IMG/VR virus record: IMGVR_UViG_3300034105_001128
Coordinates: 1-64,000 of that record
Reading direction: 5' to 3' (one strand)
Length of the DNA stretch: 64,000 nucleotides
Source: a virus
Program-made: the position numbers and the translations under genes
Notes under the pieces: generated by a model
The model's database searches: none
Seen by the model: only the letters and a program-made list of their open reading frames with translations
Told to the model about the DNA's origin: nothing
In this document: one piece after another, positions 484 to 36,602 of the stretch
Position numbering within the stretch: the stretch's first letter is position 1
How the letters are laid out: every line of letters starts with the position of its first letter

Positions 484-641
484 TGGTACTAGATAATGGA
501 ACAACACTAGCCATAATGATTGCTTTACTGGGGTCAGTAACAGTCATGTGTCTATTCTGGAGAGAAAACATCAACCAACACAAACAAATCCGCGGCCTAC
601 AGGCAGCCTTACGTGACGAACGGAGAAAGAATGCGGGATAA
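483..641 (+). CDS. small membrane protein with GTG start
   Basis: 52 aa. The GTG shares its G with the TAG stop of the WhiB-like gene, and an AGAAAGG site lies 10 bases upstream. Residues about 8-24 are hydrophobic, followed by a charged helical tail. It contains copy 1 of the 12-base motif, read here as NQHKQ. The 3' end overlaps the next gene by 11 bases. Family not recognised; support comes from overlap coupling, the ribosome site and the coherent membrane-plus-tail composition. Confidence 0.55.
   Translation: MVLDNGTTLAIMIALLGSVTVMCLFWRENINQHKQIRGLQAALRDERRKNAG
575..586 (+). repeat. 12-base motif, copy 1
   Basis: CCAACACAAACA inside the small gene 483-641, read as (N)QHK(Q). Confidence 0.75.
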
Positions 642-777
642 AGATGCTCTTGCTAAGTTAAATGAAGTGAAAGCAGCGCAAGAAGAGTTACGTTCAATAA
701 TTGCTCAGTTACAAATAGATGTACACACAATCAAAGCACAACAATATCTACGTGATTGGAGTATCAATGGCAAATAA
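631..777 (+). CDS. short coiled-coil protein, unknown
   Basis: 48 aa. The ATG follows GGAGAAAGA. Residues 5-40 are a charged helix with leucine/isoleucine spacing typical of a coiled coil. It overlaps its neighbours on both sides (11 bases upstream, 11 downstream), as expected in a coupled operon. Function unknown; a partner of the preceding small membrane protein is possible but inferred only from adjacency. Confidence 0.55.
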   Translation: MRDKDALAKLNEVKAAQEELRSIIAQLQIDVHTIKAQQYLRDWSINGK

Positions 778-997
778 AGTTAAATCAGACGAAGAACTAA
801 GAGCAGCAGGTTACATGACACCTACTGAGTTTGTAGACAGGCTTGTGCCTGGACTCAAGCAATACCTCAAGCACAACTGGGGTGTTCACCCAGATGGCTT
901 GTATCATCCCGAAGATCTATTTTCCAACGCAGAGATCTATTTAGAAGTAGCCAGACATGTTGTTGGCGACTTCGGTGTTACACCACACAAAGAATAG
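767..997 (+). CDS. conserved-looking hypothetical protein
   Basis: 76 aa from the ATG at 767, chosen over an earlier ATG at 719 because TGGAG lies just upstream. Mixed charged and aromatic composition without a membrane segment. The segment at residues 15-45 (TPTEFVDRL, then HPDGLYHPEDLF) looks folded. No motif I can name. It is the last gene before a strong terminator at 1035-1079, so it closes the first transcription unit. Confidence 0.6.
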   Translation: MANKVKSDEELRAAGYMTPTEFVDRLVPGLKQYLKHNWGVHPDGLYHPEDLFSNAEIYLEVARHVVGDFGVTPHKE

Positions 998-1011
998 TCT
1001 TATGTGAGGGA

Positions 1012-1033
1012 GCCTAGTCATGCGGAACTAGGC
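1012..1033 (+). other. 7-bp hairpin ahead of terminator
   Basis: GCCTAGT (1012-1018) pairs perfectly with ACTAGGC (1027-1033) around an 8-base loop. It lies between the stop codon at 997 and the terminator stem and may protect the 3' end of the transcript. Confidence 0.5.
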
Positions 1034-1034
1034 G

Positions 1035-1079
1035 GGGTGGGGTTGAGAGTTTGAGGGAGCTCTCCCCCACCCTATTTTT
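1035..1079 (+). terminator. rho-independent terminator
   Basis: GGGTGGGG (1035-1042) pairs with CCCCACCC (1065-1072), extended inside by GAGAG/CTCTC, and is followed by TATTTTT. It ends the operon of genes 23-997, so the gene at 1433 needs its own promoter or readthrough. Confidence 0.75.
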
Positions 1080-1127
1080 CTATACGATGCGATAGTAACG
1101 TAACGCGTTACTATCGGATTGTATAGA
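1079..1127. repeat. long imperfect inverted repeat
   Basis: TCTATAC-GATG-CGATAGTAACG (1079-1100) faces CGTTACTATCG-GATT-GTATAGA (1106-1127). Eleven inner and seven outer pairs are perfect, interrupted by a 4-base internal loop around a 5-base centre. It has no following T-run. It could be a protein-binding palindrome, an origin element, or the 5' stem of an RNA leader. Confidence 0.7.
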
Positions 1128-1363
1128 CAATCCAAGGAACACTACTGGACCAATGAACAGGCGAGGAATGGAGGCTGCTAAGGCTCTGAACTAGGCATCC
1201 CTATGAGAATAGGTAACCCTACTGTAAGGCTGAACCCCCGGCCGGACCCTTAACACTCGATACAACTTCGTGGGTGTATCACTGTAATGGCTATGTACAG
1301 CGACCAAAAGAAATAGGTAGTGCCAACCAAAAGACACAGAGCATGTGGTCTATAAAACATGTA

Positions 1364-1375
1364 CCAACACAAACA
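1364..1375 (+). repeat. 12-base motif, copy 2
   Basis: CCAACACAAACA in the leader of gene 1433, just before the 10-bp hairpin. Confidence 0.8.
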
Positions 1376-1384
1376 CGCACCACA

Positions 1385-1408
1385 ATACACACCCGGCTGG
1401 GTGTGTAT
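1385..1408 (+). promoter_or_regulatory. 10-bp hairpin upstream of gene 1433
   Basis: ATACACACCC (1385-1394) pairs perfectly with GGGTGTGTAT (1399-1408) around a GGCT loop. It ends about 10 bases before the AAAAGGAGGG ribosome site, so it may stabilise the mRNA or act as a translational operator. Confidence 0.6.
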
Positions 1409-1432
1409 CCACGTACAAAAGGAGGGCCAGCA

Positions 1433-1873
1433 ATGGCTACAACTAAAGTAATCGCAACAACTTGGGCTAAGAAAGATCTAGTCGCTAAGTTAAAAGCAAC
1501 ACTCAAGCGTATGGACGCAGAGATAGTTGAGTGGGATAAAAACTACGCAACTATAGATAAGCGTCAAGAGGCTTGGGATAAGAAAGCTGAAGCATGGGCT
1601 AAAAAGAACATGTCTAAAGCAATTGACTTCGACTTCAATGCTGGAGGATACAGAGGACCCTATGTCTCTGTGTTCTTTAACGAAGCAACGTTCGAAGCAG
1701 CAATGGGTAAGCGCCCTGATCAAGGCCGTAAACCTCAATATAAAGACACTAACTATAACAACAATGTTAGTGAGTACGAACAGGTGGAAAATGCTATCGC
1801 TCTAATCGAAGGTGCAACTGATACTGAATTCAAGATCACTTCGTCTTCAACATGGGCATCATTCATCCGCTAA
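1433..1873 (+). CDS. helical N-terminal hypothetical protein
   Basis: 146 aa from the ATG at 1433, placed by AAAAGGAGGG 8 bases upstream; the open frame extends back to 1274 but covers leader hairpins. Residues 8-62 are a Lys/Glu/Trp-rich amphipathic helix (repeated WDKK, AWAKK), and the C-terminal half looks like a compact alpha/beta domain. It follows a long structured leader with its own hairpin, which suggests high or regulated expression. No family recognised. Confidence 0.65.
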   Translation: MATTKVIATTWAKKDLVAKLKATLKRMDAEIVEWDKNYATIDKRQEAWDKKAEAWAKKNMSKAIDFDFNAGGYRGPYVSVFFNEATFEAAMGKRPDQGRKPQYKDTNYNNNVSEYEQVENAIALIEGATDTEFKITSSSTWASFIR

Positions 1874-1908
1874 ACAACTTAATAACGCCTAGCGCGGTTG
1901 GTTTCTAT

Positions 1909-1932
1909 AGTTCTTCCTGAGGTAAAAGAACT
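1909..1932 (+). other. intergenic hairpin
   Basis: AGTTCTT (1909-1915) pairs with AAGAACT (1926-1932) around 10 bases, in the 116-base gap between genes 1433-1873 and 1990-2277. No T-run follows, so it is more likely an RNA-stability or regulatory element than a terminator. Confidence 0.4.
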
Positions 1933-1989
1933 CCTGTCCTGAGCATGACAAGGCTAAACTGCTCATTACTCATACCAGAAAGGATAGCA

Positions 1990-2277
1990 ATGGAACTAGA
2001 ACCATCAGACTTAGGCAAAGATGATGACCTAAGCCAGTTTAAAACTGTACCTGAACACAAGACCAACATACTTCCATTACGTTGGTTTGCTAACGCATGT
2101 AACCACATGTCTTCGCCTGTTCTATACAGGGCACTATGGCATGAAGACTCTGATGAATACTACTATGGAGAAATATCCAGAGTGGGTCGCATGTGGTGGA
2201 AGTTGTACAACTTAATAGACGCACCCTATCGTAAGTGGGGCACAAGTTATCGTATGATCTTTGACGATAATGACTGA
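1990..2277 (+). CDS. hypothetical protein
   Basis: 95 aa from the ATG at 1990, preceded by AGAAAGGA; the upstream in-frame ATG at 1945 has no ribosome site. Acidic N-terminus, then an aromatic-rich region (residues 45-90 with several Trp and Tyr, for example MWWKLYNL). It overlaps the next gene through ATGACTGA. Function not recognised. Confidence 0.6.
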   Translation: MELEPSDLGKDDDLSQFKTVPEHKTNILPLRWFANACNHMSSPVLYRALWHEDSDEYYYGEISRVGRMWWKLYNLIDAPYRKWGTSYRMIFDDND

Positions 2278-2512
2278 GCTAGTAGGTAAATACGTACAGA
2301 CTCCAGACGGAGTTCAGTATGTATGGCAAGAACAAGAAGTACCTTCCCCAACGTTTGACAACACGACAAGTAAACTACTATTCTTAATAGAAGCAGTGCT
2401 ATTTCATGGCTGCACCCGCAAAGAAGCATTGATGCTATGGGATGATGGCATCGATACGCTGTATGACAGCGTCTCAACACAAACAAACCAAGCCGAAAGG
2501 ATGGACAAGTAA
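2270..2512 (+). CDS. hypothetical protein
   Basis: 80 aa from the ATG at 2270, which overlaps the preceding stop by 8 bases; a TTG at 2261 is an alternative. The N-terminal 25 residues (GKYVQTPDGVQYVWQ) look like a small beta hairpin; the rest is helical. Motif copy 3 lies near the 3' end in the frame STQTN. No family recognised. Confidence 0.55.
   Translation: MTELVGKYVQTPDGVQYVWQEQEVPSPTFDNTTSKLLFLIEAVLFHGCTRKEALMLWDDGIDTLYDSVSTQTNQAERMDK
2474..2485 (+). repeat. 12-base motif, copy 3
   Basis: TCAACACAAACA (11 of 12) near the 3' end of gene 2270-2512. Confidence 0.7.
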
Positions 2513-2788
2513 ATGGCTACAAAATCAAAAGGTAATCGTAATGATAACCGACCAAATGGCAAGGCCGCCAAGAAGAATCCAGGCCCTGCTCAACCACCAA
2601 AGACTAACTTCGAACATATTAATGGACGAAGCCCTGCCAATGATGCCAAGCGTGAGGCTTGGAAGAAAGCAGGTGGTCGTTGGAATCACAAATCAATTCC
2701 ACATTGGAAGACTGGCAAAGTGTACCAACCATCAATCATCGCACCAGCATTTGATCCTGAGAAATTACAGGAACTATTAAATGCGTAA
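2513..2788 (+). CDS. basic, low-complexity N-terminal hypothetical protein
   Basis: 91 aa. Residues 1-35 are very basic and rich in Asn/Pro/Lys, resembling a disordered nucleic-acid-binding tail; residues 36-91 contain Trp/His-rich SIPHWKTGKVY. The ATG directly follows the TAA of the upstream gene, and AAAGGA lies about 13 bases upstream. Overlaps the next gene by 8 bases. Function unknown. Confidence 0.6.
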   Translation: MATKSKGNRNDNRPNGKAAKKNPGPAQPPKTNFEHINGRSPANDAKREAWKKAGGRWNHKSIPHWKTGKVYQPSIIAPAFDPEKLQELLNA

Positions 2789-3095
2789 GAAAAAAGTTAT
2801 CGCTGCTATTGAGCAGCAGATACTAGAAGAACATGCTGAACTACATGGCATTGAACAACAAAATGCCCGCGCATATTACAGTGGGATGATGGATGGCTTA
2901 GGCTTTGCGCTTAAGATGTTAAAGCCAACATCCTCTGTAATATCTCTCACAACTGTATGGTATACAGATGATGAGCCAACACAAACACTCGAACGGGACC
3001 GCGAACGTGTCATCGAGCTTCAATTTGTTGACATGGAGGACCCAGAGCCTGTAATCTGTTACGCAGGCTTATTTGAAACATCGGAGGCAGAATGA
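2781..3095 (+). CDS. hypothetical protein with helical N-terminus
   Basis: 104 aa, starting inside the previous stop (ATGCGTAA overlap). Residues 5-50 form a long helix ending in a glycine-rich GMMDGLGFALKML segment; the C-terminal half is beta-like and acidic. Motif copy 4 is coded as PTQT. It overlaps the next gene by 4 bases, so the genes from 2270 to 4319 form one overlapping chain. Confidence 0.6.
   Translation: MRKKKVIAAIEQQILEEHAELHGIEQQNARAYYSGMMDGLGFALKMLKPTSSVISLTTVWYTDDEPTQTLERDRERVIELQFVDMEDPEPVICYAGLFETSEAE
2976..2987 (+). repeat. 12-base motif, copy 4
   Basis: CCAACACAAACA inside gene 2781-3095, read as PTQT. Confidence 0.75.
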
Positions 3096-3829
3096 CATCC
3101 CGTATGTTCACATACGCTGAATGGGAAGCCTATTTAGCCAGTGGACGCAAAAAATACGAACGCACATTGTATGACCGTGAGTTACGTATACAACACGCCA
3201 ATAAATTCAAACGTGGCGGTGATATTCAAATAGTAATACCTTGGTTAAATCGTTTTCCACTTATTACTATTCATCCTGATGACACCATGACCTTAAATGG
3301 TGAGCAGGCAACCTCAATGTGGGGTCACCCATACAATCCATTAAAAGCACAAAGCACACGCTACACCTTGTGGAAATACTGCGGTATAGAAGTTGTTCAA
3401 CGCCAGTTCAAGTTTAGATTATTTGAACAAGACGCTGCATTGACTCCACCAAAAATACAAGGTTGTCGTACGTGTAAAAAAACTGGGCGTGTTGATGGGT
3501 GGTGTAATGGCAATACTTGTTGGGATGTAAATACAAATACAGGCATATGCCCTAAGCATCCTGATACAGCACTATCAGATGTGGAGAAACAACGAGGTAG
3601 ACACGCTATGTTGTGTGAACATAACGAGTTGTTAAGCCACAAAGTACCACGCGGATACGAATGCTACTCATGTAGTGGCACAGGCAAGCGTGACTATGGT
3701 AGCAAACGAGTTTCTTTACTTTGGGACGGTTCCCCAATCAAAGTAAAGGATAGAAAGATATACAAACAACCACTAACTGATCTAGAAAGGATCGTGGCTA
3801 GCTATGCTGGACCTACACCTACAGTATGA
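3092..3829 (+). CDS. zinc-knuckle protein of unknown function
   Basis: 245 aa. Two CxxC knuckles, CRTCKKTGR (about 130-138) and CYSCSGTGKR (about 192-201), resemble the CxxCxGxG repeats of DnaJ/rubredoxin-like zinc domains, with further Cys/His between them, so one or two zinc sites are likely. The N-terminal 120 residues are beta-rich without a known motif. The start overlaps the previous gene by 4 bases and the end overlaps the next by 26. A role in nucleic-acid binding or protein folding is possible but not shown. Confidence 0.65.
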   Translation: MTSRMFTYAEWEAYLASGRKKYERTLYDRELRIQHANKFKRGGDIQIVIPWLNRFPLITIHPDDTMTLNGEQATSMWGHPYNPLKAQSTRYTLWKYCGIEVVQRQFKFRLFEQDAALTPPKIQGCRTCKKTGRVDGWCNGNTCWDVNTNTGICPKHPDTALSDVEKQRGRHAMLCEHNELLSHKVPRGYECYSCSGTGKRDYGSKRVSLLWDGSPIKVKDRKIYKQPLTDLERIVASYAGPTPTV

Positions 3830-4319
3830 TCCAAACATCTCGCTCCGTAATCATATGACTCATGGTTTACCAGACCATAAGATTACAGGCGATATGTTAG
3901 CGGGGGGTTTGATGCCCACCACACTCATCGAGATAACTGAAAAGTCAGAGACTTTTCGTGATGCTGTGATTCATCACATGCTCACCGATGGGAGAATCAA
4001 TCAACCACAACAACAGCAAGCAATTGAATTGTTTGCTGCTGCCGTGTCAACTTGTCCCGATGACAATGAAACAATGCTACGTATTTATAGTGAATACTTA
4101 GCTGCACTTTCATACGCATGGGGAGAGACCGAAGTTGCAAAACGTGCGGTCTTACGCAACAAACCAGAAAAGGCGGGTAGATTTTTATCCACCGTGGCTA
4201 CCGCTTTAGATAAGCAGATGGACCACGAGGGTTTTAATACCTTGCTACATAACACAACATCATCAGCACCACACAGGTGGGAAATGCTAGAGTCCCCACA
4301 ACTATATCCAACAGTCTAA
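3804..4319 (+). CDS. helical protein, possibly DUF4192-like
   Basis: 171 aa, mostly alpha-helical. The segment LRIYSEYLAALSYAWGETEVAKRA recalls the C-terminal repeat of actinobacterial DUF4192 proteins, seen more clearly in the gene at 9313, but similarity is weak and I give it as a possibility only. AAAGGA lies about 15 bases before the ATG. Motif copy 5 begins immediately after its stop codon. Confidence 0.6.
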   Translation: MLDLHLQYDPNISLRNHMTHGLPDHKITGDMLAGGLMPTTLIEITEKSETFRDAVIHHMLTDGRINQPQQQQAIELFAAAVSTCPDDNETMLRIYSEYLAALSYAWGETEVAKRAVLRNKPEKAGRFLSTVATALDKQMDHEGFNTLLHNTTSSAPHRWEMLESPQLYPTV

Positions 4320-4331
4320 CCAACACAAACA
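4320..4331 (+). repeat. 12-base motif, copy 5
   Basis: CCAACACAAACA between a stop codon (4319) and the ribosome site of gene 4342. Confidence 0.8.
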
Positions 4332-4341
4332 AAGGAACCAC

Positions 4342-4662
4342 ATGTCAAAAAGTTGGACAAACGAAGGGCCTGATACTGAATCTTGGTTAAACAGTATCAC
4401 TACCGAAAAAGAAACCGTAGCTGATTTACTCAGTTGCGGTAACTGTGGTCGCCGTATACAACCAAGTCAAAAAAGCTTGGATGTGTACAACACACGGTAC
4501 AAAAGCTACGAACACTATCACGAAAGCTACGTAGGTTGTTATGAATCTACGCGGCCCAGCGGTAAGGTTCGCCTTGCGCACCGCTATAAGCCCTGGATGC
4601 AAAACGTATTAAGTGACGTTTATACTCCAGAGCCTACACACTGGACTAACTTAGATCAGTAA
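4342..4662 (+). CDS. CxxC hypothetical protein
   Basis: 106 aa. CGNC (about 32-35) plus Cys66 could hold a metal. The Tyr/His/Lys-rich middle (YKSYEHYHESYVGCYES) is unusual. The ATG follows motif copy 5 and AAAGGAACC. Its stop codon is buried in the first stem of the structured region that follows (4655-4706), so termination and RNA folding may interact. Confidence 0.6.
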   Translation: MSKSWTNEGPDTESWLNSITTEKETVADLLSCGNCGRRIQPSQKSLDVYNTRYKSYEHYHESYVGCYESTRPSGKVRLAHRYKPWMQNVLSDVYTPEPTHWTNLDQ

Positions 4663-4888
4663 TAAAGCGGGATGACTGTTGCGTCAGAAAACTTTATTTC
4701 ACTGATAAGTTAGTCCCCTAGTCTGGTTGGCTAAGCCAACCTCAAGCATACTTAACAGGTCTATACCAGAATAATTTAGACGCTCACGCGCTAGTAGTAC
4801 GAAGTAACTAGATGTATGGGAGATGAGAAGACAACGTGACGACCAGTTCAGTCCCTGTATGCAACGGGGGTAAGCCAACCAGACTACT
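4655..4888 (+). ncRNA. candidate structured RNA with alternative pairings
   Basis: A 245-base gap without an ORF contains nested complementarity. Stem 1: ATCAGT-AATAAAG (4655-4667) with CTTTATT-(TC)-ACTGAT (4692-4706), plus inner TGAC/GTCA. Stem 2: a 14-bp perfect long-range pairing, 4719-4732 with 4873-4886. Nested stem 3: GCATAC (4746-4751) with GTATGC (4857-4862), extended by AGG/CCT. The left arm of stem 2 can instead fold locally as GGTTGGC-TAA-GCCAACC (4725-4741), because TAAGCCAACC occurs twice (4732-4741, 4871-4880). The two folds exclude each other, as in a riboswitch or attenuator. No known RNA family recognised. Confidence 0.55.
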
Positions 4889-4907
4889 TAAATAGATTGG
4901 AGAGCAC

Positions 4908-5147
4908 ATGTGTTATGAATGTGATGATGACGACTCAATGCCAGACGAAGAGTTTAGTATCAACATGATTCCTGAAGAGGAACGTGAAGAGTTCTTAGAC
5001 TATGCTGTTGAGAAGTTCCATAAAGTTATAGAAAAAGCAGTACAGAATGACATCCTGTTTAATCTAATAACAGAATGGCCTGAACATAAGCAGGCCATGT
5101 TTACTTTCGCCACCATTATGGAAGATAAGCTTCTGGGTGACGATTAA
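4908..5147 (+). CDS. acidic helical hypothetical protein
   Basis: 79 aa and strongly acidic. CYEC at residues 2-5 with a following Asp run could bind a metal; the rest is an amphipathic helix. TTGGAGAGCAC precedes the ATG. It is the first gene after the structured RNA candidate, so it may be what that element controls. Acidic small phage proteins often inhibit host enzymes, but nothing here shows that directly. Confidence 0.6.
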   Translation: MCYECDDDDSMPDEEFSINMIPEEEREEFLDYAVEKFHKVIEKAVQNDILFNLITEWPEHKQAMFTFATIMEDKLLGDD

Positions 5148-5202
5148 TTTTCCTTACACAACGTAAGGGAACGATACCAATACCAGAGAAGGGGTATGAT
5201 AT

Positions 5203-6609
5203 ATGGATATCGCAATGTTCACTGAATCGTACGAACCAAACATGGGTAACAAGCGACGTCAAGTCCTTGTTGTTCCACATGATGGGGCTGTGCGTATCTA
5301 TTCTCGCTTGACTGATGGCACTAAAGGCCACAACAGCAAGTGGGAAGAGACTAACCTAGAAGATATCTCACAAGAGATATCAGACAAAGAAACATTGACA
5401 CGAACACCTGTTGGAGTGTATGTAACTCCAGCAGATAATCGTGCGATGGATTCAAAAGGTTATTCACCAGTGTTGGGTACCAAAGCATGCGACAAGCATG
5501 GTAGGGCAATGACAACAACAGATACCACACCAGTTGTAGATATCATCTGTGATTTCTACGAACAAGTCAATGTCGGAGACGACAGTCTGGAGAAATACGT
5601 GACGGATAACCGCTCAAGTACAGGCACTACAGTTCCTTTAGTAGTTGCTGTACCAACACAAACAATGGATGATCTAGTACCAGCACAATCGGCACCATCA
5701 TTCAATGTATCGTTAGCAACAGTTCCTCCAATGAAGTTGGCGGAACGTTATGTGCACCGTAAAGTATACGGTGTTGAAGACTTCAAAGCCTTTGACAAAG
5801 CACGATCTAACGGTATCAACGTTCTTATCTATGGCCCTACAGGTCCAGGTAAGACAACAGCTGTAGAAGCGTGGGCAGCAGCCCGCGGTCTACGTATGGC
5901 TACAGTATCAGGTAACGCATCTATGGAGTCTCGCCAGCTATTCGGTGGCTTCATTCCTGATGGCATCGGAGGTTATGGTTGGATCGATGGTCCAGTAACT
6001 GATGTTGTACGTAACGGTGGCGTCTTATTGCTCGATGAGATGAACTTCATCAGCCCTAAGATTTACACTACATTGTATCCGCTAACAGATGGTCGTCGAT
6101 GCATTACATTGCTCGATCACATGGGTGAAACAATCGTGGCACACAAAGACTTAACAATCTTTGCAACCATGAACCCAGACTACATCGGTACAACACCGCT
6201 TAACTTCGCTATGCGCAATCGTTTCGACATTCAATTGTCGTGGGATTACGATGACGCAGTAGAGGCTAAGCTAGTTTCATCTAAGGCTCTCTTGCTAGTA
6301 ACTAAGCAACTTCGTGCTGAAGCTGCTAAGGGTCAGTACGAGACACCAATCTCAACTAACATGCTCATCGAAGTTGAAGCGTTCATTAAGGATGCTGATC
6401 TTGGCTACGAGTTTGCGGTTGAGAACTTCATTGCTCACTTCAGTGCGGAGGAGCAAGCATCTGTTCGTCTAGTCTTCCAGACACACGAACACAACATCAA
6501 GACAGACTTCGGCATCGAAGTTCCAATAACAATGGAACAAGCTGCTACAGTAACTATTGATGAACAACTATCCCAATGGGTAGCAGCACGTCAACTACAA
6601 CCGAACTAA
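5203..6609 (+). CDS. MoxR/CobS-like AAA+ ATPase
   Basis: 468 aa. An N-terminal region of about 180 residues precedes an AAA+ module: Walker A GPTGPGKT (211-218), Walker B VLLLDE (274-279), sensor-1 ATMNPD (Asn324) and arginines at 338 and 340. MoxR/CobS ATPases form rings that remodel a partner carrying a VWA domain, and that partner is the next gene (12-base gap), so the two should act as one chaperone-like complex in the cytoplasm. CobS proper loads cobalt in B12 synthesis; the long N-terminal extension argues for a phage-specific role. AAGGGG precedes the ATG. Motif copy 6 lies inside (PTQT). Confidence 0.9.
   Translation: MDIAMFTESYEPNMGNKRRQVLVVPHDGAVRIYSRLTDGTKGHNSKWEETNLEDISQEISDKETLTRTPVGVYVTPADNRAMDSKGYSPVLGTKACDKHGRAMTTTDTTPVVDIICDFYEQVNVGDDSLEKYVTDNRSSTGTTVPLVVAVPTQTMDDLVPAQSAPSFNVSLATVPPMKLAERYVHRKVYGVEDFKAFDKARSNGINVLIYGPTGPGKTTAVEAWAAARGLRMATVSGNASMESRQLFGGFIPDGIGGYGWIDGPVTDVVRNGGVLLLDEMNFISPKIYTTLYPLTDGRRCITLLDHMGETIVAHKDLTIFATMNPDYIGTTPLNFAMRNRFDIQLSWDYDDAVEAKLVSSKALLLVTKQLRAEAAKGQYETPISTNMLIEVEAFIKDADLGYEFAVENFIAHFSAEEQASVRLVFQTHEHNIKTDFGIEVPITMEQAATVTIDEQLSQWVAARQLQPN
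5653..5664 (+). repeat. 12-base motif, copy 6
   Basis: CCAACACAAACA inside the AAA+ ATPase gene, read as PTQT. Confidence 0.75.
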
Positions 6610-6621
6610 GTTAGGAACCAT

Positions 6622-8496
6622 ATGTATAACGATGATTTATCATCCGAACCGTGGTACCAACAAGAACGTGATGAGGAATCTCAATTACGTTCTGTTAGGC
6701 TGAATGCTCTGTGCCGTGTGTACGAGCAAGCAGACCGTGTTCTAAGTGGTGACCCTGTGATTGTGAATGTTGTTACCGGAGGAAGCGCACCAGCGTGGTC
6801 CGATGGAGCATCTATCACATTCAATGCAGACGAGATCAATGACCTTGACTTGGAAGCATTGACACAGATCAACGGCCTGAACTATCACGAGTTGGCTCAC
6901 CATCTCTATACACCACGTCGTGGAACAACATTCATGAAGTGGGTTATGGAGAATCAATACTTAGAGGCTGCAAATATACTAGAGGATCAGCGTATCGAGA
7001 CTCTACTTACAGCACGCTATCCAAGTATCATTCCGTATCTAACAGCCACAGTTGCTAGGTGGCTAGGCAACACACCCGAGCATGCTATAGGTAACTATAT
7101 GCTGGTGCGTGGCCGTAGGTATCTTCCATTGGAAATCAGACAATCATTCAGAGATTTGTTTGCTTTCCCTGATTTACTACCAGCCATCGTAGATATTGTA
7201 GATCAGTATCGTACGCTGGCATTCCCACGTGACTATGAGAAAGCACAGAAACTCATCAAGCGGTTCAATGATGAGGTCTTAGGTAATCTTGACATGCCAC
7301 AACTACCACAAGGTATGAATGGCTGTACGTCACGTGATCCCATTACTAAAGGTCGTCCCGAACCTGGTAGAGCACAGGAGAAAGACGCAGCTAAAGGTTG
7401 CAACATGGGTACAGCTGAACCAATAGGTGGTGGTCGTAAGCCAAACCTTAAGCCCAACACAAACCCAACCGAAGGACAAAGCACGGCTGCGGTAAGTGCA
7501 CCGCAAACATCTAGTGAAGCACTTGACATGCGTGCTAGGAACCAGGAACAAAAACAACCTGGTAACTTATCAGCAGGCTCAGGTCATCACGAAAGTGTTG
7601 GCGGCATACCAGACAACGTCAAGGAAATGCTTGAGGATACCATCCAGACAGTGTTAGAACGTAAAGACGTTCAACAGGATGTTAAGACGAAGCAGAAAGT
7701 AATTGTCGGTGGTGATGGTAAGCATGATGACACAATCAAGTCAGGTAAGTTCGATATGACATCTGTTCCTAATGAATCAGTGTTGTTATATCGTAAATTT
7801 GCCCGTGAACTTGAGCGTCTTCGTGATGAATGCGAACCCGCATGGCATCGTGAGGAAGCTAGTGGTCGCCTAAACATGCAGCGTGTGTTTAGAGGCTGCG
7901 AGATTGATGAGGCCTTTGACCGTTGGGATGAAGGCAATGATGGTGCCGATGTAGAAGCGGTAATCATGATTGATCGTTCTGGCAGTATGGCTAGTGGTCA
8001 GAATGATCGCAGAGCATCTGAAGCATGTTGGACAATCAAGCGTGCACTTGAGCAAATTGGTGCGCCAGTCACAGTCTATGCCTTTGATGATAAGGCTGAG
8101 GTTGCGTACAAGCGTACAGAGCTAGCTCACCGTACACAATACAAGTTCATCTACGGCAATGGTGGTACTAATCCATATACCACCCTACTTGCTGCAGAGC
8201 AACTATTCATATCGTCACGACGCAAAAACAAAATGCTATTCATAGTTACTGACGGTGCGTTTGACGCATCCAAGAACGATGAAGTCATTGAGCGTATTGC
8301 TAAGCGTGGCGTACTCACAGCCATGACACTAATCATGGCTAATGATGATGCTCAGTACTACGAAGATCGTGGTATGACCGAGAAAGAATTCAGACATGGT
8401 GCTGAGATCTTTGGTCGCATCAACAATGCACGAGACCTATTGCCATTTGCCAAGGCAGTAGTAATGGGGGCAATCAAAAAGCGTGGCGGCCGTTAA
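6622..8496 (+). CDS. CobT-like protein with HExxH motif and VWA domain
   Basis: 624 aa. Residues about 80-130 hold HELAHH (89-94) and NILEDQRIE (118-126), the segments typical of CobT-like and putative metallopeptidase-VWA proteins. Residues 225-330 are a disordered Pro/Gly/Gln linker; residues 446-620 form a VWA domain with MIDAS DRSGS (451-455). The VWA domain should bind Mg and contact the AAA+ ring of the upstream gene. HExxH suggests a zinc site, but no protease activity is proven. Motif copy 7 lies in the linker in a third reading frame (KPNTNP), which argues the motif is selected as nucleic acid. Confidence 0.85.
   Translation: MYNDDLSSEPWYQQERDEESQLRSVRLNALCRVYEQADRVLSGDPVIVNVVTGGSAPAWSDGASITFNADEINDLDLEALTQINGLNYHELAHHLYTPRRGTTFMKWVMENQYLEAANILEDQRIETLLTARYPSIIPYLTATVARWLGNTPEHAIGNYMLVRGRRYLPLEIRQSFRDLFAFPDLLPAIVDIVDQYRTLAFPRDYEKAQKLIKRFNDEVLGNLDMPQLPQGMNGCTSRDPITKGRPEPGRAQEKDAAKGCNMGTAEPIGGGRKPNLKPNTNPTEGQSTAAVSAPQTSSEALDMRARNQEQKQPGNLSAGSGHHESVGGIPDNVKEMLEDTIQTVLERKDVQQDVKTKQKVIVGGDGKHDDTIKSGKFDMTSVPNESVLLYRKFARELERLRDECEPAWHREEASGRLNMQRVFRGCEIDEAFDRWDEGNDGADVEAVIMIDRSGSMASGQNDRRASEACWTIKRALEQIGAPVTVYAFDDKAEVAYKRTELAHRTQYKFIYGNGGTNPYTTLLAAEQLFISSRRKNKMLFIVTDGAFDASKNDEVIERIAKRGVLTAMTLIMANDDAQYYEDRGMTEKEFRHGAEIFGRINNARDLLPFAKAVVMGAIKKRGGR
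7454..7465 (+). repeat. 12-base motif, copy 7
   Basis: CCAACACAAACC (11 of 12) inside the CobT-like gene, in a different frame (PNTNP). Confidence 0.7.
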
Positions 8497-8497
8497 T

Positions 8498-8509
8498 CCA
8501 ACACAAACA
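8498..8509 (+). repeat. 12-base motif, copy 8
   Basis: CCAACACAAACA between stop codon 8496 and the ribosome site of gene 8521. Confidence 0.8.
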
Positions 8510-8520
8510 AGGGAGCAAAC

Positions 8521-8712
8521 ATGTACACAATATGGGATAGCCTAAACGAGGAGAACATCGAAATCTTTAATGATTACGACTCTGCTCAAATGTTCTTGTT
8601 ACACATCTCTGATGAGATACCTGATGGTGGTGCAAACCTAACCATTGAGCCTATCTCTACAGCACAGGAGTGGGCACAGAATAACTGCATCGTACTATCG
8701 GCGTTAGTATGA
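8521..8712 (+). CDS. small acidic hypothetical protein
   Basis: 63 aa, no Cys and no membrane segment; predicted alpha/beta. The ATG follows motif copy 8 and AAGGGAGC. The stop overlaps the next ATG by 4 bases. Function unknown. Confidence 0.6.
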   Translation: MYTIWDSLNEENIEIFNDYDSAQMFLLHISDEIPDGGANLTIEPISTAQEWAQNNCIVLSALV

Positions 8713-8861
8713 GTTTACGAGAAGATCGTCCTGACATATGGATGAGCGAAATGCTTAAACAACGTGAGGAAGAACGATACTCAGCAAACAAAGAAATAGT
8801 TAGGTCTTTACTAATCAAATATGAGGCTGAAGACCTAGTACCAATGCTATTGGAGGACTAA
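8709..8861 (+). CDS. small helical hypothetical protein
   Basis: 50 aa. Almost entirely charged helix (MLKQREEERYSANKEIV), overlapping upstream (ATGA) and downstream (TAATG) genes, which supports translation by coupling. No family recognised; a coiled-coil adaptor is possible. Confidence 0.55.
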   Translation: MSLREDRPDIWMSEMLKQREEERYSANKEIVRSLLIKYEAEDLVPMLLED

Positions 8862-9316
8862 TGGTTAATACATTCTTACCTTGGCCAGATATAACACGTA
8901 CAGCTAAATCCTTAGACAATAAGAGACTCGGCAAGCAACGCGTAGAAGCATTGCAGATTCTGAGGGCTAACTTGGGTCTAACTAGTGGATGGCGGAATCA
9001 CCCCGCAGCTGTGATGTGGCGCGGTCACGAAGGATATCTATACATGTACACGAATGCTATGTGCATGGAGTGGAGAAAGCGTGGCTACGAAGACAATGTA
9101 CAAGCACGTCTGCAAGAAATCTATGCGGAGCATGACCTACAAGGTTGGGACCCACCTTGGTGGTGGGGCAATGATGAGATCCATAAATCACATCGTTCTA
9201 ACCTAAAGCGTAAAGATCCGGTTTGGTACCGGTTTCGTGTACGTGGTGATCTTCCATACAAATGGCCTACACCAGACAAATTGTTTCGTGTAGTAATCAA
9301 AAAGGAGAAGAAATGA
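8861..9316 (+). CDS. Pyr_excise/MSMEG_6728-like protein
   Basis: 151 aa. The N-terminus TFLPWPDITRTAKSLDNKRL-GKQRVEALQIL, the central WRNHPAAVMWRGHEGYL and the HRSNLKRKDPVWYRF signature match the MSMEG_6728-type family grouped with pyrimidine-dimer DNA glycosylases. Family members are presumed to cut DNA at UV dimers, but this subgroup is poorly tested. For a phage of sunlit water, UV repair is a sensible role. The ATG overlaps the previous TAA (TAATG). Length matches the family. Confidence 0.75.
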   Translation: MVNTFLPWPDITRTAKSLDNKRLGKQRVEALQILRANLGLTSGWRNHPAAVMWRGHEGYLYMYTNAMCMEWRKRGYEDNVQARLQEIYAEHDLQGWDPPWWWGNDEIHKSHRSNLKRKDPVWYRFRVRGDLPYKWPTPDKLFRVVIKKEKK

Positions 9317-9795
9317 TAGTAACGCGTAAAGAAGCAGTTGAACTGATCTCAGGCATGCTCAACAATGACATCAACTTGGAAGGCGAAGAGCTTGAAAAAG
9401 TTATCTTTGCAGTCAATGAAGACATTCAAGTACGCGATTGGATGATGGGCCTACCAATCAAGTGGTCATTGGAAGAAAGCATCAAATTTATGCAATACAT
9501 GGCTGTGCACGCAACGGCGCAAGACTCAGTGCCGTTCGTTACGGTGCAGGCCATTTTCTATTATGAATTGGGTGAGGTAGATAAGGCAACCCAATGCCTT
9601 AATTACTCAATACATATGGACAGTGAGTACTCATTGGCTCTATTAGTTAAGCGGGTAATTGATGCTGGCTGGCCTCAAGGCTCATTTAAACCAATGCGAG
9701 ATTCTGTTCATCCAAAAATTGTTGCAGAATGCTTTAGTGAAGAAGGCCAGCAACCAATTCAAAAAGGAGACAAATCATGGCAACATACACAGTAA
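9313..9795 (+). CDS. DUF4192-like protein
   Basis: 160 aa from the ATG at 9313 (AAAGGAG upstream; overlaps the preceding gene by 4 bases). The order helix, VRDWMMG, then YYELGEVDKATQCLNYSI and YSLALLVKRVIDAGWP follows the C-terminal half of actinobacterial DUF4192 proteins, a tetratricopeptide-like fold of unknown function. Bacterial members are about twice as long, so this is a short version. It supports an actinobacterial host. Confidence 0.65.
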   Translation: MIVTRKEAVELISGMLNNDINLEGEELEKVIFAVNEDIQVRDWMMGLPIKWSLEESIKFMQYMAVHATAQDSVPFVTVQAIFYYELGEVDKATQCLNYSIHMDSEYSLALLVKRVIDAGWPQGSFKPMRDSVHPKIVAECFSEEGQQPIQKGDKSWQHTQ

Positions 9796-9971
9796 CAATC
9801 CATGATCACATAATCTATGACTATGTGATTGAGGCAGACAGCCGGCAGGAAGCTGAGGCACGAGCTGAAGAAAGCATCATGAATGAGGAGTCTCATCTAT
9901 GGCGCCAAGATATGGAAGCGGGTTGGACTGAAATTGGGGAAATCTATAACGATATGGATGAGGAAGTTTGA
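9777..9971 (+). CDS. small acidic alpha/beta protein
   Basis: 64 aa. Begins TYTVTIHDHIIYDYVIEADS and then has an Ala/Glu-rich helix (RQEAEARAEES), the beta-then-helix plan seen in many phage accessory proteins including the gene at 10982. AAAAAGGAGAC precedes the ATG, and the start overlaps the upstream gene by 19 bases. Its stop overlaps the -35 of the next promoter. Confidence 0.6.
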   Translation: MATYTVTIHDHIIYDYVIEADSRQEAEARAEESIMNEESHLWRQDMEAGWTEIGEIYNDMDEEV

Positions 9972-9996
9972 CCCAACACAAACAATCGGCTAGAAT
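9968..9996 (+). promoter_or_regulatory. sigma70-type promoter for gene 10017
   Basis: TTGACC (9968-9973), 17 bases, TAGAAT (9991-9996). Expected start near 10003, 14 bases before the ATG, leaving room for AAAGGAGAGG. Motif copy 9 forms most of the spacer, so a factor bound there could regulate this promoter. Confidence 0.55.
9973..9984 (+). repeat. 12-base motif, copy 9
   Basis: CCAACACAAACA within the spacer of the promoter at 9968-9996. Confidence 0.8.
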
Positions 9997-10016
9997 AGTA
10001 AAGGAGAGGTATATGT

Positions 10017-10217
10017 ATGGCTAATGATGATCTGTATGACCTAAGAATAGTACTTAGGGTAAAAGTTAAAAAATGGCGAATAGATGACCAGTCTAATGAA
10101 GCTAACTGGGAGTGGTCAACAAACGTATACGACAGAAACCTACAACAATGGATTAACATAGTTAATCTTAAGAGGCCCGGAGAAGACTCATACATCGAGT
10201 CTATTACGGAAATGTAA
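10017..10217 (+). CDS. small hypothetical protein
   Basis: 66 aa with a beta-rich composition (alternating hydrophobic residues, several Trp). AAAGGAGAGG precedes the ATG, and a promoter-like element lies at 9968-9996. It is followed directly by two tandem hairpins, so it may be a short, separately expressed unit. Not recognised. Confidence 0.6.
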   Translation: MANDDLYDLRIVLRVKVKKWRIDDQSNEANWEWSTNVYDRNLQQWINIVNLKRPGEDSYIESITEM

Positions 10218-10220
10218 AAA

Positions 10221-10284
10221 TCCCCCGGAGCGCAATCCGGGGGACTTGAGGGTGTGAACTCTGTTCTATGAGAGCTAACACCCT
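10221..10284 (+). terminator. tandem hairpins, possible terminator
   Basis: Hairpin 1: TCCCCCGGA (10221-10229) with TCCGGGGGA (10236-10244), nine perfect pairs. Hairpin 2: AGGGTGT (10249-10255) with ACACCCT (10278-10284), reinforced by CTCT/AGAG. Neither has a clean T-run, so this may be an attenuator or RNase barrier instead. Confidence 0.5.
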
Positions 10285-10315
10285 AATCATACACTAGAAG
10301 GGAGAATATTGTGAA

Positions 10316-10552
10316 ATGCAATTTGCAAATCTCAATATAAAAACTAAGGAGATACGAAAATTAGTGGATGCTTTGGAGGATGCGGGCCTAAACGTCAGCA
10401 TAACCAACGGTAAGCACCATGTAAAGGTCGTAAATCCCCAAACAAAACAGACAGTGTTCTTTGGGCCTCAATCATTGGGGGACCGTAGAGCATCCAAGAA
10501 TATACTAAGAGACCTTAAAAAAGTAGGGTTTCATGGCAATATCAACTCATAA
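10316..10552 (+). CDS. HicA-like dsRBD-fold protein
   Basis: 78 aa. The order helix (IRKLVDALEDAGLNV), strand with the conserved histidine (GKHHVKV), a PxGPQSLGDRRASKN-type loop, then helix (LRDLKKVGF) matches HicA/YcfA-like proteins, whose catalytic His cuts mRNA. No HicB-like antitoxin is obvious next door; the following genes have no HicB fold that I can see. It may be a solitary phage HicA used for host shut-off, or a non-toxic RNA-binding relative. Confidence 0.65.
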   Translation: MQFANLNIKTKEIRKLVDALEDAGLNVSITNGKHHVKVVNPQTKQTVFFGPQSLGDRRASKNILRDLKKVGFHGNINS

Positions 10553-10563
10553 GGAGCAAATAA

Positions 10564-10851
10564 ATGGCTAAAAAAGTAAGTAGTCTATTCAGTGCAAGTA
10601 TCGTTAAGAACCAAACAAAAGGTGGGGCATGGTTAGCAACTATTGTGCTAACGGATGAAGGCATAGATATACCATACGACTCATACCAAGCAGCCTGGGC
10701 TAATGCATCGGCTGCAAAACGATGGGTCAAAGAAGTGCTGTTAGCAACCACAACTCGTAAGTCTGTAAAAATGTTGCCTGGATCTGAACTAGACGCCAAG
10801 CAAAAGCCTGTTGTACTTTTAGGGGCGGTAACATTTAAGCGGGAGTCATGA
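10564..10851 (+). CDS. hypothetical protein, beta-rich
   Basis: 95 aa. Starts MAKKVSSLFSASIVKNQTKG, then WLATIVLTDEG and a helix (AWANASAAKRWVKE). A partner for the HicA-like protein is conceivable by position, since HicB antitoxins are about this size, but the HicB beta-sheet signature is not clear. AAGGAGC precedes the ATG. The stop overlaps the next gene by 4 bases. Confidence 0.6.
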   Translation: MAKKVSSLFSASIVKNQTKGGAWLATIVLTDEGIDIPYDSYQAAWANASAAKRWVKEVLLATTTRKSVKMLPGSELDAKQKPVVLLGAVTFKRES

Positions 10852-10982
10852 TGGATATGGAAACAGTAGGTCCTTTTAAAACAGTCAATGACTTAATGAA
10901 AGAACTTAATGAAAACAGTCCTGGTGGCTGTGATTGCGGAAACTGCAAGTGCAAAGATGAACCTACAGAAGGAGAAAGTTAA
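10848..10982 (+). CDS. Cys-cluster mini-protein
   Basis: 44 aa. The C-terminal half has CDCGNCKC, four cysteines in eight residues, probably binding zinc or another metal, flanked by acidic residues. Overlaps both neighbours (ATGA, TAATG). The GGGAG just before the ATG is a good ribosome site. Small Cys-cluster proteins recur across this genome (15427, 19525, 62455). Confidence 0.6.
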   Translation: MMDMETVGPFKTVNDLMKELNENSPGGCDCGNCKCKDEPTEGES

Positions 10983-11194
10983 TGCCTAAATACACAGTAA
11001 TGTTTTCTTCTGAAAGAAATGGTGAACTTAGTTTCACAGCAGAAGATGATCTCGATGCTGAAGACATATACGAAAACTTAATGACGGGACTTATATATTC
11101 AGATGATCTGGATGATGTCAGTGAGCGTGTAAATGATTCTGATTTACAGTTCTATGACCTTAGATCCCCGACAGGTAAGCTGCTAGCAGACTGA
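10982..11194 (+). CDS. small acidic alpha/beta protein
   Basis: 70 aa, strongly acidic. The first strand (YTVMFSSE) and following acidic helix resemble the plan of the gene at 9777. GAAGGAGAAAG precedes the ATG. It is the last gene of the left arm before the terminator at 11206. Function unknown. Confidence 0.6.
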   Translation: MPKYTVMFSSERNGELSFTAEDDLDAEDIYENLMTGLIYSDDLDDVSERVNDSDLQFYDLRSPTGKLLAD

Positions 11195-11205
11195 CCGCAA
11201 GCAAA

Positions 11206-11235
11206 TGGCCCCGGCTCTTAATTGAGTCGGGGCCA
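11206..11235. terminator. terminator between converging operons
   Basis: TGGCCCCGGCTC (11206-11217) pairs with GAGTCGGGGCCA (11224-11235), one G-U pair, six-base loop. Genes converge here from both sides; flanking AAA/TTTG tracts give modest U-runs in either direction. Confidence 0.7.
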
Positions 11236-11237
11236 AA

Positions 11238-11249
11238 TGTTTGTGTTGG
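11238..11249 (-). repeat. 12-base motif, copy 10 (inverted)
   Basis: The motif lies on the minus strand, 14 bases past the last minus-strand stop codon and 2 bases past the shared terminator stem. Confidence 0.75.
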
Positions 11250-29959: not shown

Positions 29960-30831
29960 TTTGCCTCCTGAAATGGTGCGCAACGCTTACAGCCTACTGC
30001 AGGATCTGTGCTGCAGACCGGTGGTCGTTTATTATTTACTGCCCAAGCTACGTCTAAAGCCCTGTCAAAGATATCTTTAGTAAACTCTGGGTTGTATTGT
30101 ACTACGAATTCTTTGTACTCTTGGTTAGCCTTAAGCTCATAAATAAACACAATCTCTTTTGGAGCAGACTCAAACAGCCCCTCTTCAACCATTAGGTGAC
30201 AAAGATGTAGGTATACCTGCCCCTGTAGCTGATGGGAACGAAAAGGTGTTTTAATATTCTTCCATGCTTTTTCTACGTTGTCGTCTGCTTGTGCCATAAT
30301 AGCCGGGGCATCCATGCGGATACCTCCAGAACCAATTGACTTAATTTCAATTAAGCAGTCTTCTCCTAAACCCTTAATCCAACCATCAGCGTGACCACGG
30401 ATCATATGCTTATCGCTACGCAGAGAAACCTCTGCGTATTCTTTATTTACAAGTCCTTGAAGATCTTTAGATGTAGCCCAGGTATAATCCTTAGTTATAG
30501 GGTTGTACCACTTACCATATAGAACACCCATATCGTTAAACCACTTCTGCCATTTAGCATGAATTGTGTGGCCTTCAGCAAAGATAGATGCAAGGCGAGC
30601 CGGGGTCTTGTCACGAGTCTCTACGTAGTTACCATTAACAGCATGGTATTGCGCAAGTGCGCACCAATCATCTTTAATGATATCAGACGGATGAATATAA
30701 CTCATGTCACGATCATCAAATGGGCGAGTTAACACGTGGCGCTCTACAGCACCCATAAGTCGGGTTGTTCTTTTCTTTGTTTCTAAGAATGCTTTTAAAT
30801 CCTTACTAGCAATGGTTTTAGGTGTTGCCAT
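29956..30831 (-). CDS. Cas4/RecB-like Fe-S exonuclease
   Basis: 291 aa. RGHADGWIKG...CLIEIKS (about 150-175) carries the D and ExK of the PD-(D/E)xK nuclease core. Cys57 near the N-terminus and C273, C281, C284 at the C-terminus have the spacing of the [4Fe-4S] clasp in Cas4 and AddB. It should resect DNA in phage recombination with the RecA-like protein three genes upstream. There is no CRISPR array, so a CRISPR role is not implied. Confidence 0.82.
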   Translation of the reverse strand: MATPKTIASKDLKAFLETKKRTTRLMGAVERHVLTRPFDDRDMSYIHPSDIIKDDWCALAQYHAVNGNYVETRDKTPARLASIFAEGHTIHAKWQKWFNDMGVLYGKWYNPITKDYTWATSKDLQGLVNKEYAEVSLRSDKHMIRGHADGWIKGLGEDCLIEIKSIGSGGIRMDAPAIMAQADDNVEKAWKNIKTPFRSHQLQGQVYLHLCHLMVEEGLFESAPKEIVFIYELKANQEYKEFVVQYNPEFTKDIFDRALDVAWAVNNKRPPVCSTDPAVGCKRCAPFQEAK

Positions 30832-31150
30832 ACTTTCTGCCCTCTTTCTCTAACCACTCTTCTAAGGTTGTGCCTTTTTTCTTATACTTGCGTTGGGCTG
30901 CATTTCTTTCTCTATGCGACATTCCGCCAAAGATTCCGTGAAGCTCATTATTAATTATAGCCTCTTTAAGGCACTCTTGTCTAACCGGGCATGCCGGCCT
31001 ACCGTCTTTACCTAAACAGATTGCTTTAGCTTTGTCAGCTATGGGCTTATACAAAGCCTTATCTCGTGGAGGAAAAAATATCTCTGTGTCTTCTCCCTGA
31101 CACTTGGCTTCATATCTCCAGGTCCATGCTGGATCATCGCTATATCGCAT
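30818..31150 (-). CDS. WhiB-like Fe-S regulator (second)
   Basis: 110 aa. Cys17 with EIFFPPRD, then Cys45, CPVRQEC (54, 60) and GIFGGMSHRER, the turn and basic region of canonical WhiB proteins; the basic C-terminal tail (RKYKKKG) could contact DNA. This is the most canonical of the three copies. There is an insertion between the second and third cysteines (CLGKDGRPAC), also common in phage WhiBs. Placed inside the recombination block. Confidence 0.9.
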   Translation of the reverse strand: MRYSDDPAWTWRYEAKCQGEDTEIFFPPRDKALYKPIADKAKAICLGKDGRPACPVRQECLKEAIINNELHGIFGGMSHRERNAAQRKYKKKGTTLEEWLEKEGRKYGNT

Positions 31151-36134: not shown

Positions 36135-36602
36135 TTAGTTAGTTTCTTGCTCATGGATTTTCTTCCATGTTTCCATCAGTTCAATTGATAGATCATGGTG
36201 TTTATTCCAATCAATCCTGGGAACATCAATCAGTCCCCGAGACTCAAAGCTTGCAACAGTTGCTTCGATAATTGTTTTACTGTACATCCGCCATCCGGGC
36301 TTCTTTACACCTTTAACAATTATTGACTTTAGGCGATAGGGTGCACGTGGTATAAAACCTTTTCGTTCCCAAAGCCTCAAAGTAACTATCGGTCTGCCTA
36401 ATGCGAGACACAATGACCCCGCACTATATAATTCTACCACGTTTCCATTAGGTAGAGTTTTTACCTGAGGATTCTCATCCCAGGAACCTTCTTGTATTAC
36501 TTTTTTAGGTTTAGCATTTGGATTTACGGCACGACGCTTTTTCTTAGAGCCTGGATAATAATCATCCAAACTCTTAAATAAGTTGTCTACCTGATCTGTC
36601 AT
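36135..36602 (-). CDS. MerR-like helix-turn-helix protein
   Basis: 155 aa. YSAGSLCLALGRPIVTLRLW-ERKGFIPRAPYRL is a MerR-type winged helix (helix, turn, ERKGFIP wing). A basic N-terminus (SKKKRRAVNPNAKPKK) precedes it. It is unlikely to be a metal sensor since no Cys sensor region exists; a DNA-binding regulator or replication accessory is likelier. Preceded by a GGGATGAC site weakly. Confidence 0.7.
   Translation of the reverse strand: MTDQVDNLFKSLDDYYPGSKKKRRAVNPNAKPKKVIQEGSWDENPQVKTLPNGNVVELYSAGSLCLALGRPIVTLRLWERKGFIPRAPYRLKSIIVKGVKKPGWRMYSKTIIEATVASFESRGLIDVPRIDWNKHHDLSIELMETWKKIHEQETN

Follow-up and report, generated by a model that had tools for sequence, protein, structure and literature searches.

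Why does a phage repeat one 12-nucleotide word along a single arm of its genome, nearly always in the same orientation? The question is raised by the window studied here, the stretch of 64,000 nucleotides at positions 1 to 64,000 of the IMG/VR virus record IMGVR_UViG_3300034105_001128 (76,241 bases in full), where the word CCAACACAAACA recurs between 575 and 11249. The 12-mer is repeated, oriented and evenly spaced, is conserved at the nucleotide level, occurs in a promoter and next to a terminator-like hairpin, and is distributed throughout a family of related phages. The reading that we favor, with a probability of roughly 45%, is that it may act as a directional transcription stop or insulator site in the accessory arm of an actinophage that appears to be lytic, by analogy with the stoperators of cluster A mycobacteriophages. 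An earlier note, made from the letters of the window alone, had listed eight exact and two one-mismatch copies in this region. All ten are present, and all but the final one, at 11238, are on the plus strand, as follows (ORF, open reading frame):

575..586, plus strand: exact CCAACACAAACA, within the small ORF 483-641, frame QHK
1364..1375, plus strand: exact CCAACACAAACA, in the gap ahead of a gene starting near 1434
2474..2485, plus strand: one-mismatch copy TCAACACAAACA, within ORF 2261-2512, reads STQT
2976..2987, plus strand: exact CCAACACAAACA, within ORF 2781-3095, reads PTQT
4320..4331, plus strand: exact CCAACACAAACA, abuts the stop codon of ORF 3804-4319
5653..5664, plus strand: exact CCAACACAAACA, in the linker of the MoxR-type AAA ATPase gene 5203-6609, (S/P)TQT frame, codons near-invariant in relatives
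7454..7465, plus strand: one-mismatch copy CCAACACAAACC, in the linker of the VWA (CobT-like) gene 6622-8496, frame PNTN
8498..8509, plus strand: exact CCAACACAAACA, abuts the VWA stop codon
9973..9984, plus strand: exact CCAACACAAACA, inside a promoter spacer
11238..11249, minus strand: exact CCAACACAAACA, inverted, sense for the leftward operon, at the operon end

Copies, spacing and codons of the 12-mer

Allowing at most one mismatch, 14 matches to CCAACACAAACA are found in the 64-kb window. The expectation is 0.46 per 64 kb and the maximum in 100 dinucleotide shuffles was 3, an excess that the earlier note had anticipated, and in second-order Markov windows (n = 60) the count of the top 12-mer never exceeded 3. 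No exact copy lies between 11.25 and 64 kb, as had been stated, but four one-mismatch copies are present there (43155, 51942, 58851 and 62761) rather than the single one near 58.85 kb that had been noticed. Beyond the window, the minus strand holds one more exact copy, at 72557. By their ORF coordinates, the in-gene copies do occupy all three reading frames: QHK at 575, (S/P)TQT at 2474, 2976 and 5653, and PNTN at 7454. The inverted copy is found where gene direction flips, with the rightward genes stopping at 11194 and the leftward block beginning there.

Related loci were collected through their VWA and MoxR proteins (54-99% identity). In nearly all of these contigs, no oligomer is repeated more often in the corresponding arm than this 12-mer or a close variant of it; CCAACACAAACA itself usually ranks first among the 10-12-mers, its strand is unchanged and most of its positions are shared, which bears out the idea that related phages keep the motif at homologous positions. 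The relatives also carry one inverted copy at a convergent gene end. In a few contigs (L049-L051 and L054-L055) the number falls to about three copies, and some more distant lineages use variants, namely CCAACATAAACA in L019, CCGACACAAACA in L020, and CCAACCCAAACA in L106, L107 and others. A phage with only 31% VWA identity (L024) uses CCAAGGCAAACA, and the copy just past VWA recurs in the distant relative L108 (10275).

The site set comprises 152 non-redundant sites, 136 on the plus strand and 16 on the minus strand. The core shared by the plus sites is [CT]C[AG]ACA[CT]AAAC[A], and its 5' edge is sharp. The 12-base tract on their 3' side is enriched in C (36% vs 21%) and depleted in T (14% vs 23%), and no preference is seen on the 5' side. 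Seventy-two of the 136 plus sites fall within ORFs, where all three frames are used, and most others follow directly after a stop codon, the distance being 1 at 18 of 55 sites. RNA accessibility around the sites is not selected (0.762 vs 0.754 with shuffled flanks), and no selection was detected on flanking structure at single sites. In L096, 7 bases separate a motif copy at 4835-4846 from a tRNA-Met gene downstream of it (4854-4928), and the copy is not part of the tRNA.

The spacing between sites has a median of 1210 bases, with a 5-95% range of 690-1798. Its coefficient of variation is 0.17-0.35, where sites placed at random would give about 0.85; each of the 19 contigs tested, which share ancestry, gives P ≤ 0.003. 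In the window, the spacing is also more even than that of random sets of gene starts (P = 0.0005). Where MoxR and VWA leave 1.8 kb between sites, some lineages have an extra site in the middle.

The copy inside MoxR allows selection on nucleotides to be separated from selection on the peptide. Of 44 homologues, 41 have this copy as the codons CCA-ACA-CAA-ACA, and a further two depart from it at the first base alone (TCA). Among sequences with the majority residue, codon identity at the four positions is 1.0, 1.0, 0.98 and 1.0, whereas for these residues at other places in the gene the mean is 0.60-0.71. The motif ranks first among 133 four-codon windows, the runner-up reaching 0.84. In the sole homologue that has lost the site, CCGACACAAACA is found a few codons to the 3' side and in another frame. 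Because these codons are near-invariant and a lost site is replaced in another frame, comparison of the homologues indicates that selection acts on the nucleotide sequence and not on the peptide. The view that the element is kept as DNA or RNA rather than as protein, already put forward from the use of several frames, thus gains support from codons that are fixed at the site and vary for the same residues elsewhere.

Promoter, terminator and genome context

Two copies in the window are associated with predicted transcription signals:

9968..9996, plus strand: sigma70-like promoter TTGACC-N17-TAGAAT, encloses the 9973 copy, kept in relatives
11207..11234, minus strand: GC-rich terminator-like hairpin, 3 bases past the inverted copy in the leftward reading

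The layout TTGACc-N17/18-TAnanT with the motif in the spacer is found in 14 relatives. When 19.5 kb of a near-complete relative of 100 kb (G006) was scanned on both strands, the motif-bearing promoter was the sole sigma70-like one above the cut-off. Of the 16 minus sites, 14 are followed within 40 bases by a hairpin of ≤ -15 kcal/mol, a strength reached in 1% of control stretches. Plus copies precede such hairpins in L013, L016, L040, L043, L045 and L100, as does a variant motif in G016 (61564), and no clear hairpin enrichment is seen for the plus-strand copies overall. The promoter around 9973, the hairpin beside the inverted copy, the even spacing, and the paired and antisense arrays of distant relatives described below all go beyond the earlier note. 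A general promoter role was considered and rejected: across the sites there is no enrichment of a -10 element at a fixed offset, such an element being associated with the 9973 copy only, and copies precede terminators.

In G006, nearly all genes are leftward except for one rightward arm of about 12 kb, which holds MoxR, VWA, WhiB and many small genes, and essentially all motif copies of this genome fall within it (46.9-58.1 kb). In the record of the window (G000), motif sites are likewise limited to the rightward arm, save one copy at 72557. The record of the window encodes WhiB, MoxR-VWA, a ribonucleotide reductase and a queuine tRNA-ribosyltransferase-like gene. The closest annotated isolates are Gordonia, Brevibacterium and Streptomyces phages. 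Because of its WhiB genes and these relatives, the host is probably to be sought among freshwater Actinobacteria. A search of bacterial genomes for the host gave no match, and the terminase has no relative in 84,980 genomes; a near-identity search of isolated phages gave no match either.

Gordonia and Brevibacterium isolates bearing MoxR-VWA show no comparable repeated motif, just Asp/Glu codon repeats, and Streptomyces phage BRock, which is distantly related and shares the layout, has no such motif in its rightward arm. A literature search for the 12-mer returned only unrelated papers that contain it as a short sequence and none that treats it as a phage element. No curated RNA family in Rfam matched at the motif sites.

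Several other features of the window may be recorded here. There are two WhiB-type regulators (211-483 and 30821-31150), one per transcription arm, and the same is true of G006. A small HicA-like protein (10316-10552, a weak match) has no evident HicB partner and is kept in most relatives. In an arm that is otherwise tightly packed, two long gaps (998-1433 and 4663-4907) are without convincing genes; they hold inverted repeats and may encode structured RNAs, although neither has a match in Rfam.

Distant relatives and known systems

In phages whose MoxR is about 36% identical, the motif occurs in divergent pairs, about 50-145 bases across and about 1.2 kb apart; each pair separates one gene's terminator from the upstream region of the gene that follows. 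Many of these pairs close a long covarying hairpin, in which the inner stem is perfectly paired and is unrelated in sequence between elements. A scan of IMG/VR for divergent pairs returned 20 stretches, whereas the same search of 84,980 genomes of bacteria and archaea returned none; no related copy turned up in bacterial genomes. In distant relatives, a composite TGTTTGTGTTGR-CCCACCCACCC stands directly after terminators. The orientation of the motif is uniform within a lineage, not across all lineages.

The single-gene units of these phages have further repeated parts. Conserved outer arms of 12 bp with unrelated inner stems can be seen in L108 (4086-4147 and 5277-5344), L107 (1522-1601 and 3953-4036) and L128-L147, and DnaA-box-like TTATCCACA repeats often adjoin paired hairpins between the units. 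In the intergenic regions of L119 (3601-9493), most single-gene units have a terminator, an antisense motif and CCCACCCACCC, and also a palindrome resembling TGTGA-N6-TCACA (CRP-like) with repeated AGGGTGTAGGT ahead of the start codon. L117, L113 and L108 each have phage-specific words repeated on the promoter side of their own units (CTGAGAGTTAY, GGGTTGTTATAA and TTATAACGATTNGATAACAA).

The stoperators of cluster A mycobacteriophages are 13-bp asymmetric repressor sites that follow the direction of transcription in promoters and gaps, and their reversal abolishes the effect (PMC9283540); their consensus varies among phages (PMC6550527). The 12-mer resembles them in being a short asymmetric motif with some ten or more copies, one of them in a promoter, and with a consensus that differs among related phages. 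It is also oriented with transcription in the clade of the window, though not in L119 and the paired group. The analogy drawn by the earlier note therefore holds in form: an oriented, asymmetric site with one promoter copy, other copies in operon gaps and genes, and a lineage-dependent consensus. Unlike stoperators, which are spread genome-wide in a temperate phage, this array is confined to one arm of 11-12 kb. About half of the non-redundant sites are in genes, the spacing is even at about 1.2 kb, and there is a link to terminator hairpins. Inverted hairpin pairs and antisense arrays occur in distant relatives, the sequence is unrelated, and no repressor or integrase was found among the proteins looked up. 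The array would thus work like a stoperator array, and yet we do not class it as one, because it is restricted to one arm, no repressor or integrase was recognized, and the orientation rule fails in distant relatives.

The start-associated sequences of cluster K mycobacteriophages (GGGATAGGAGCCC) are located directly upstream of start codons (PMC3203893). Both they and the present motif are dispersed asymmetric 12-13-mers, mostly in one orientation and kept while the linked genes change, and some start-associated sequences are extended by inverted repeats, a further likeness. The sequence is different, however, being CCAACACAAACA and not GGGATAGGAGCCC, and the analogy, also suggested by the earlier note, breaks down on placement, since the copies follow stop codons or lie within genes.

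Two more systems share some of these properties. The DNA uptake sequences and uptake signal sequences of Neisseria and Haemophilus are short and non-palindromic, occur about once per kb, and are found singly in genes and as inverted hairpin pairs at gene ends. The 12-mer shares the shortness, the lack of a palindrome, the density, the single in-gene copies and the inverted hairpin pairs, but is limited to one phage arm, is strongly sense-biased in the clade of the window and has no known uptake role. Integron attC sites have conserved outer ends and variable inner stems and form arrays of gene units of about 1 kb. Only the paired group matches them in all three respects; the outer 12-mer differs from the attC core boxes, in-gene copies are unpaired, and no integron integrase was seen.

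Possible function of the site and its alternatives

We favor a directional stop or insulator because the sites are placed in a promoter spacer, in operon gaps and ahead of hairpins, are sense-oriented in the clade of the window, and are spread evenly. We infer protein binding, a polymerase block, its timing and a reader as follows. A sequence-specific protein, most likely phage-encoded, would bind the asymmetric site and block RNA polymerase coming from the CC end. The site at 9973-9984 in the promoter spacer would act as an operator, and the minus-strand site at 11238 would back up the intrinsic terminator and keep the long leftward operon out of the rightward arm. With a spacing of about 1.2 kb, every transcript of the arm would soon reach a site, and the whole arm could be silenced or switched. 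In L119 and the paired group, the same site may stop antisense or read-through transcription between single-gene units.

A candidate for the reader is encoded outside the arm:

36138..36602, minus strand: MerR-like winged-helix DNA-binding protein, candidate reader of the motif

This protein was found in 26 of 30 records searched, the remaining four being fragments of 20-68 kb, and among the conserved proteins only this one and WhiB are universal. The alignment-based model of the MerR-like protein is a confident one, with a mean pLDDT (predicted local distance difference test) of 84.8, and a fold search with this model matched only MerR-type domains, weakly. The winged-helix region varies between deep lineages that share the motif, so that co-variation speaks neither for nor against the MerR-like protein as the reader.

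Several observations weigh against a directional stop. Cluster A repressors combine an HTH with a stoperator domain; no immunity repressor was recognized among the proteins looked up, and no integrase was seen in the gene lists, which were inspected by eye. Nine copies in L119 are antisense to the genes and placed after plus-strand terminators, and copies in several other distant relatives form divergent pairs, so orientation relative to transcription is not universal. Furthermore, the perfectly complementary inner stems of the pairs are not explained by a protein-only reading.

The motif could instead be read as RNA. A sense transcript carrying CCAACACAAACA and a C-rich tail every 1.2 kb might be bound by a phage or host RNA-binding protein, or cut by a nuclease, that processes, protects or times the polycistronic mRNA. 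The motif consists of A and C only, is sense in the rightward arm, often follows stop codons at distance 1, and is trailed by the C-rich, T-poor tract on its 3' side alone; the covarying hairpins formed by pairs in distant relatives and the L096 copy ahead of a tRNA gene also fit. We nevertheless consider an RNA signal rather unlikely, as single sites show no selection for accessibility or flanking structure, the L119 array is antisense only, and the 9973 copy is in a promoter spacer, outside the RNA made from that promoter. The same 3' tract, the placement ahead of terminator hairpins and the TGTTTGTGTTGR-CCCACCCACCC composite right after terminators would also suit host Rho/NusG-type machinery that reads the motif and tract as a strong factor-dependent pause or a Rho utilization (rut)-like site with no phage protein involved. 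This seems improbable, since an exact 12-mer is much more specific than any rut site known, and since the RNA of sites within genes under translation would be covered by ribosomes.

Roles other than transcription have also to be weighed. A DNA organizer for replication, head-on conflict handling, partition or compaction would account for an evenly spaced array limited to the one oppositely transcribed arm, and the MerR-like protein is encoded amid replication genes, while DnaA-box-like TTATCCACA adjoins many paired elements. The strict sense orientation and the promoter and terminator placement point to transcription instead, and no origin-like clustering is seen, which leaves such a role with a small share of the probability. 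Smaller still is the share we would give to a recombination boundary, in which the motif marks exchangeable cassettes in an attC-like, uptake-sequence-like or hotspot manner. One site per 1.2 kb or so, the hypervariable gene content of the arm, and inverted pairs with variable inner stems between genes of distant relatives are in its favor, but alignment breaks within 15 bases of sites are only slightly enriched (3.8% vs 2.5%), and the best-conserved copy, that of MoxR, lies within a gene rather than at a boundary. Finally, in-gene copies often encode PTQT, as expected if a PTQT-like linker peptide, or else chance through base composition, had produced the repeats. This last explanation has next to no probability and is refuted by the use of three frames, the many gap copies, the near-invariant codons, and simulated 12-mers that reach at most 3 copies.

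Returning to the directional stop or insulator, it is possible, and we suggest it more tentatively than the reading itself, that the array is of a new type. An oriented 12-bp signal would divide the arm into stretches of about 1.2 kb, with in-gene copies kept by exact codon choice. Its reader would be a host factor or a DNA-binding protein that all these phages encode, and the outcome would be conditional stopping and insulation of transcription with no lysogenic immunity involved. The long hairpins that separate single-gene units in distant relatives would have this signal at their base.

If the directional stop is correct, stoperator-like control, known from temperate mycobacteriophages, would extend to uncultured and apparently lytic freshwater phages, with a spacing rule and in-gene placement that are missing from the known stoperator case. 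For phages that so far resist cultivation, the motif would offer a sequence-based way into the study of gene control, and its natural variant sites and candidate readers may serve for studying how a bound protein stops polymerase in one direction.

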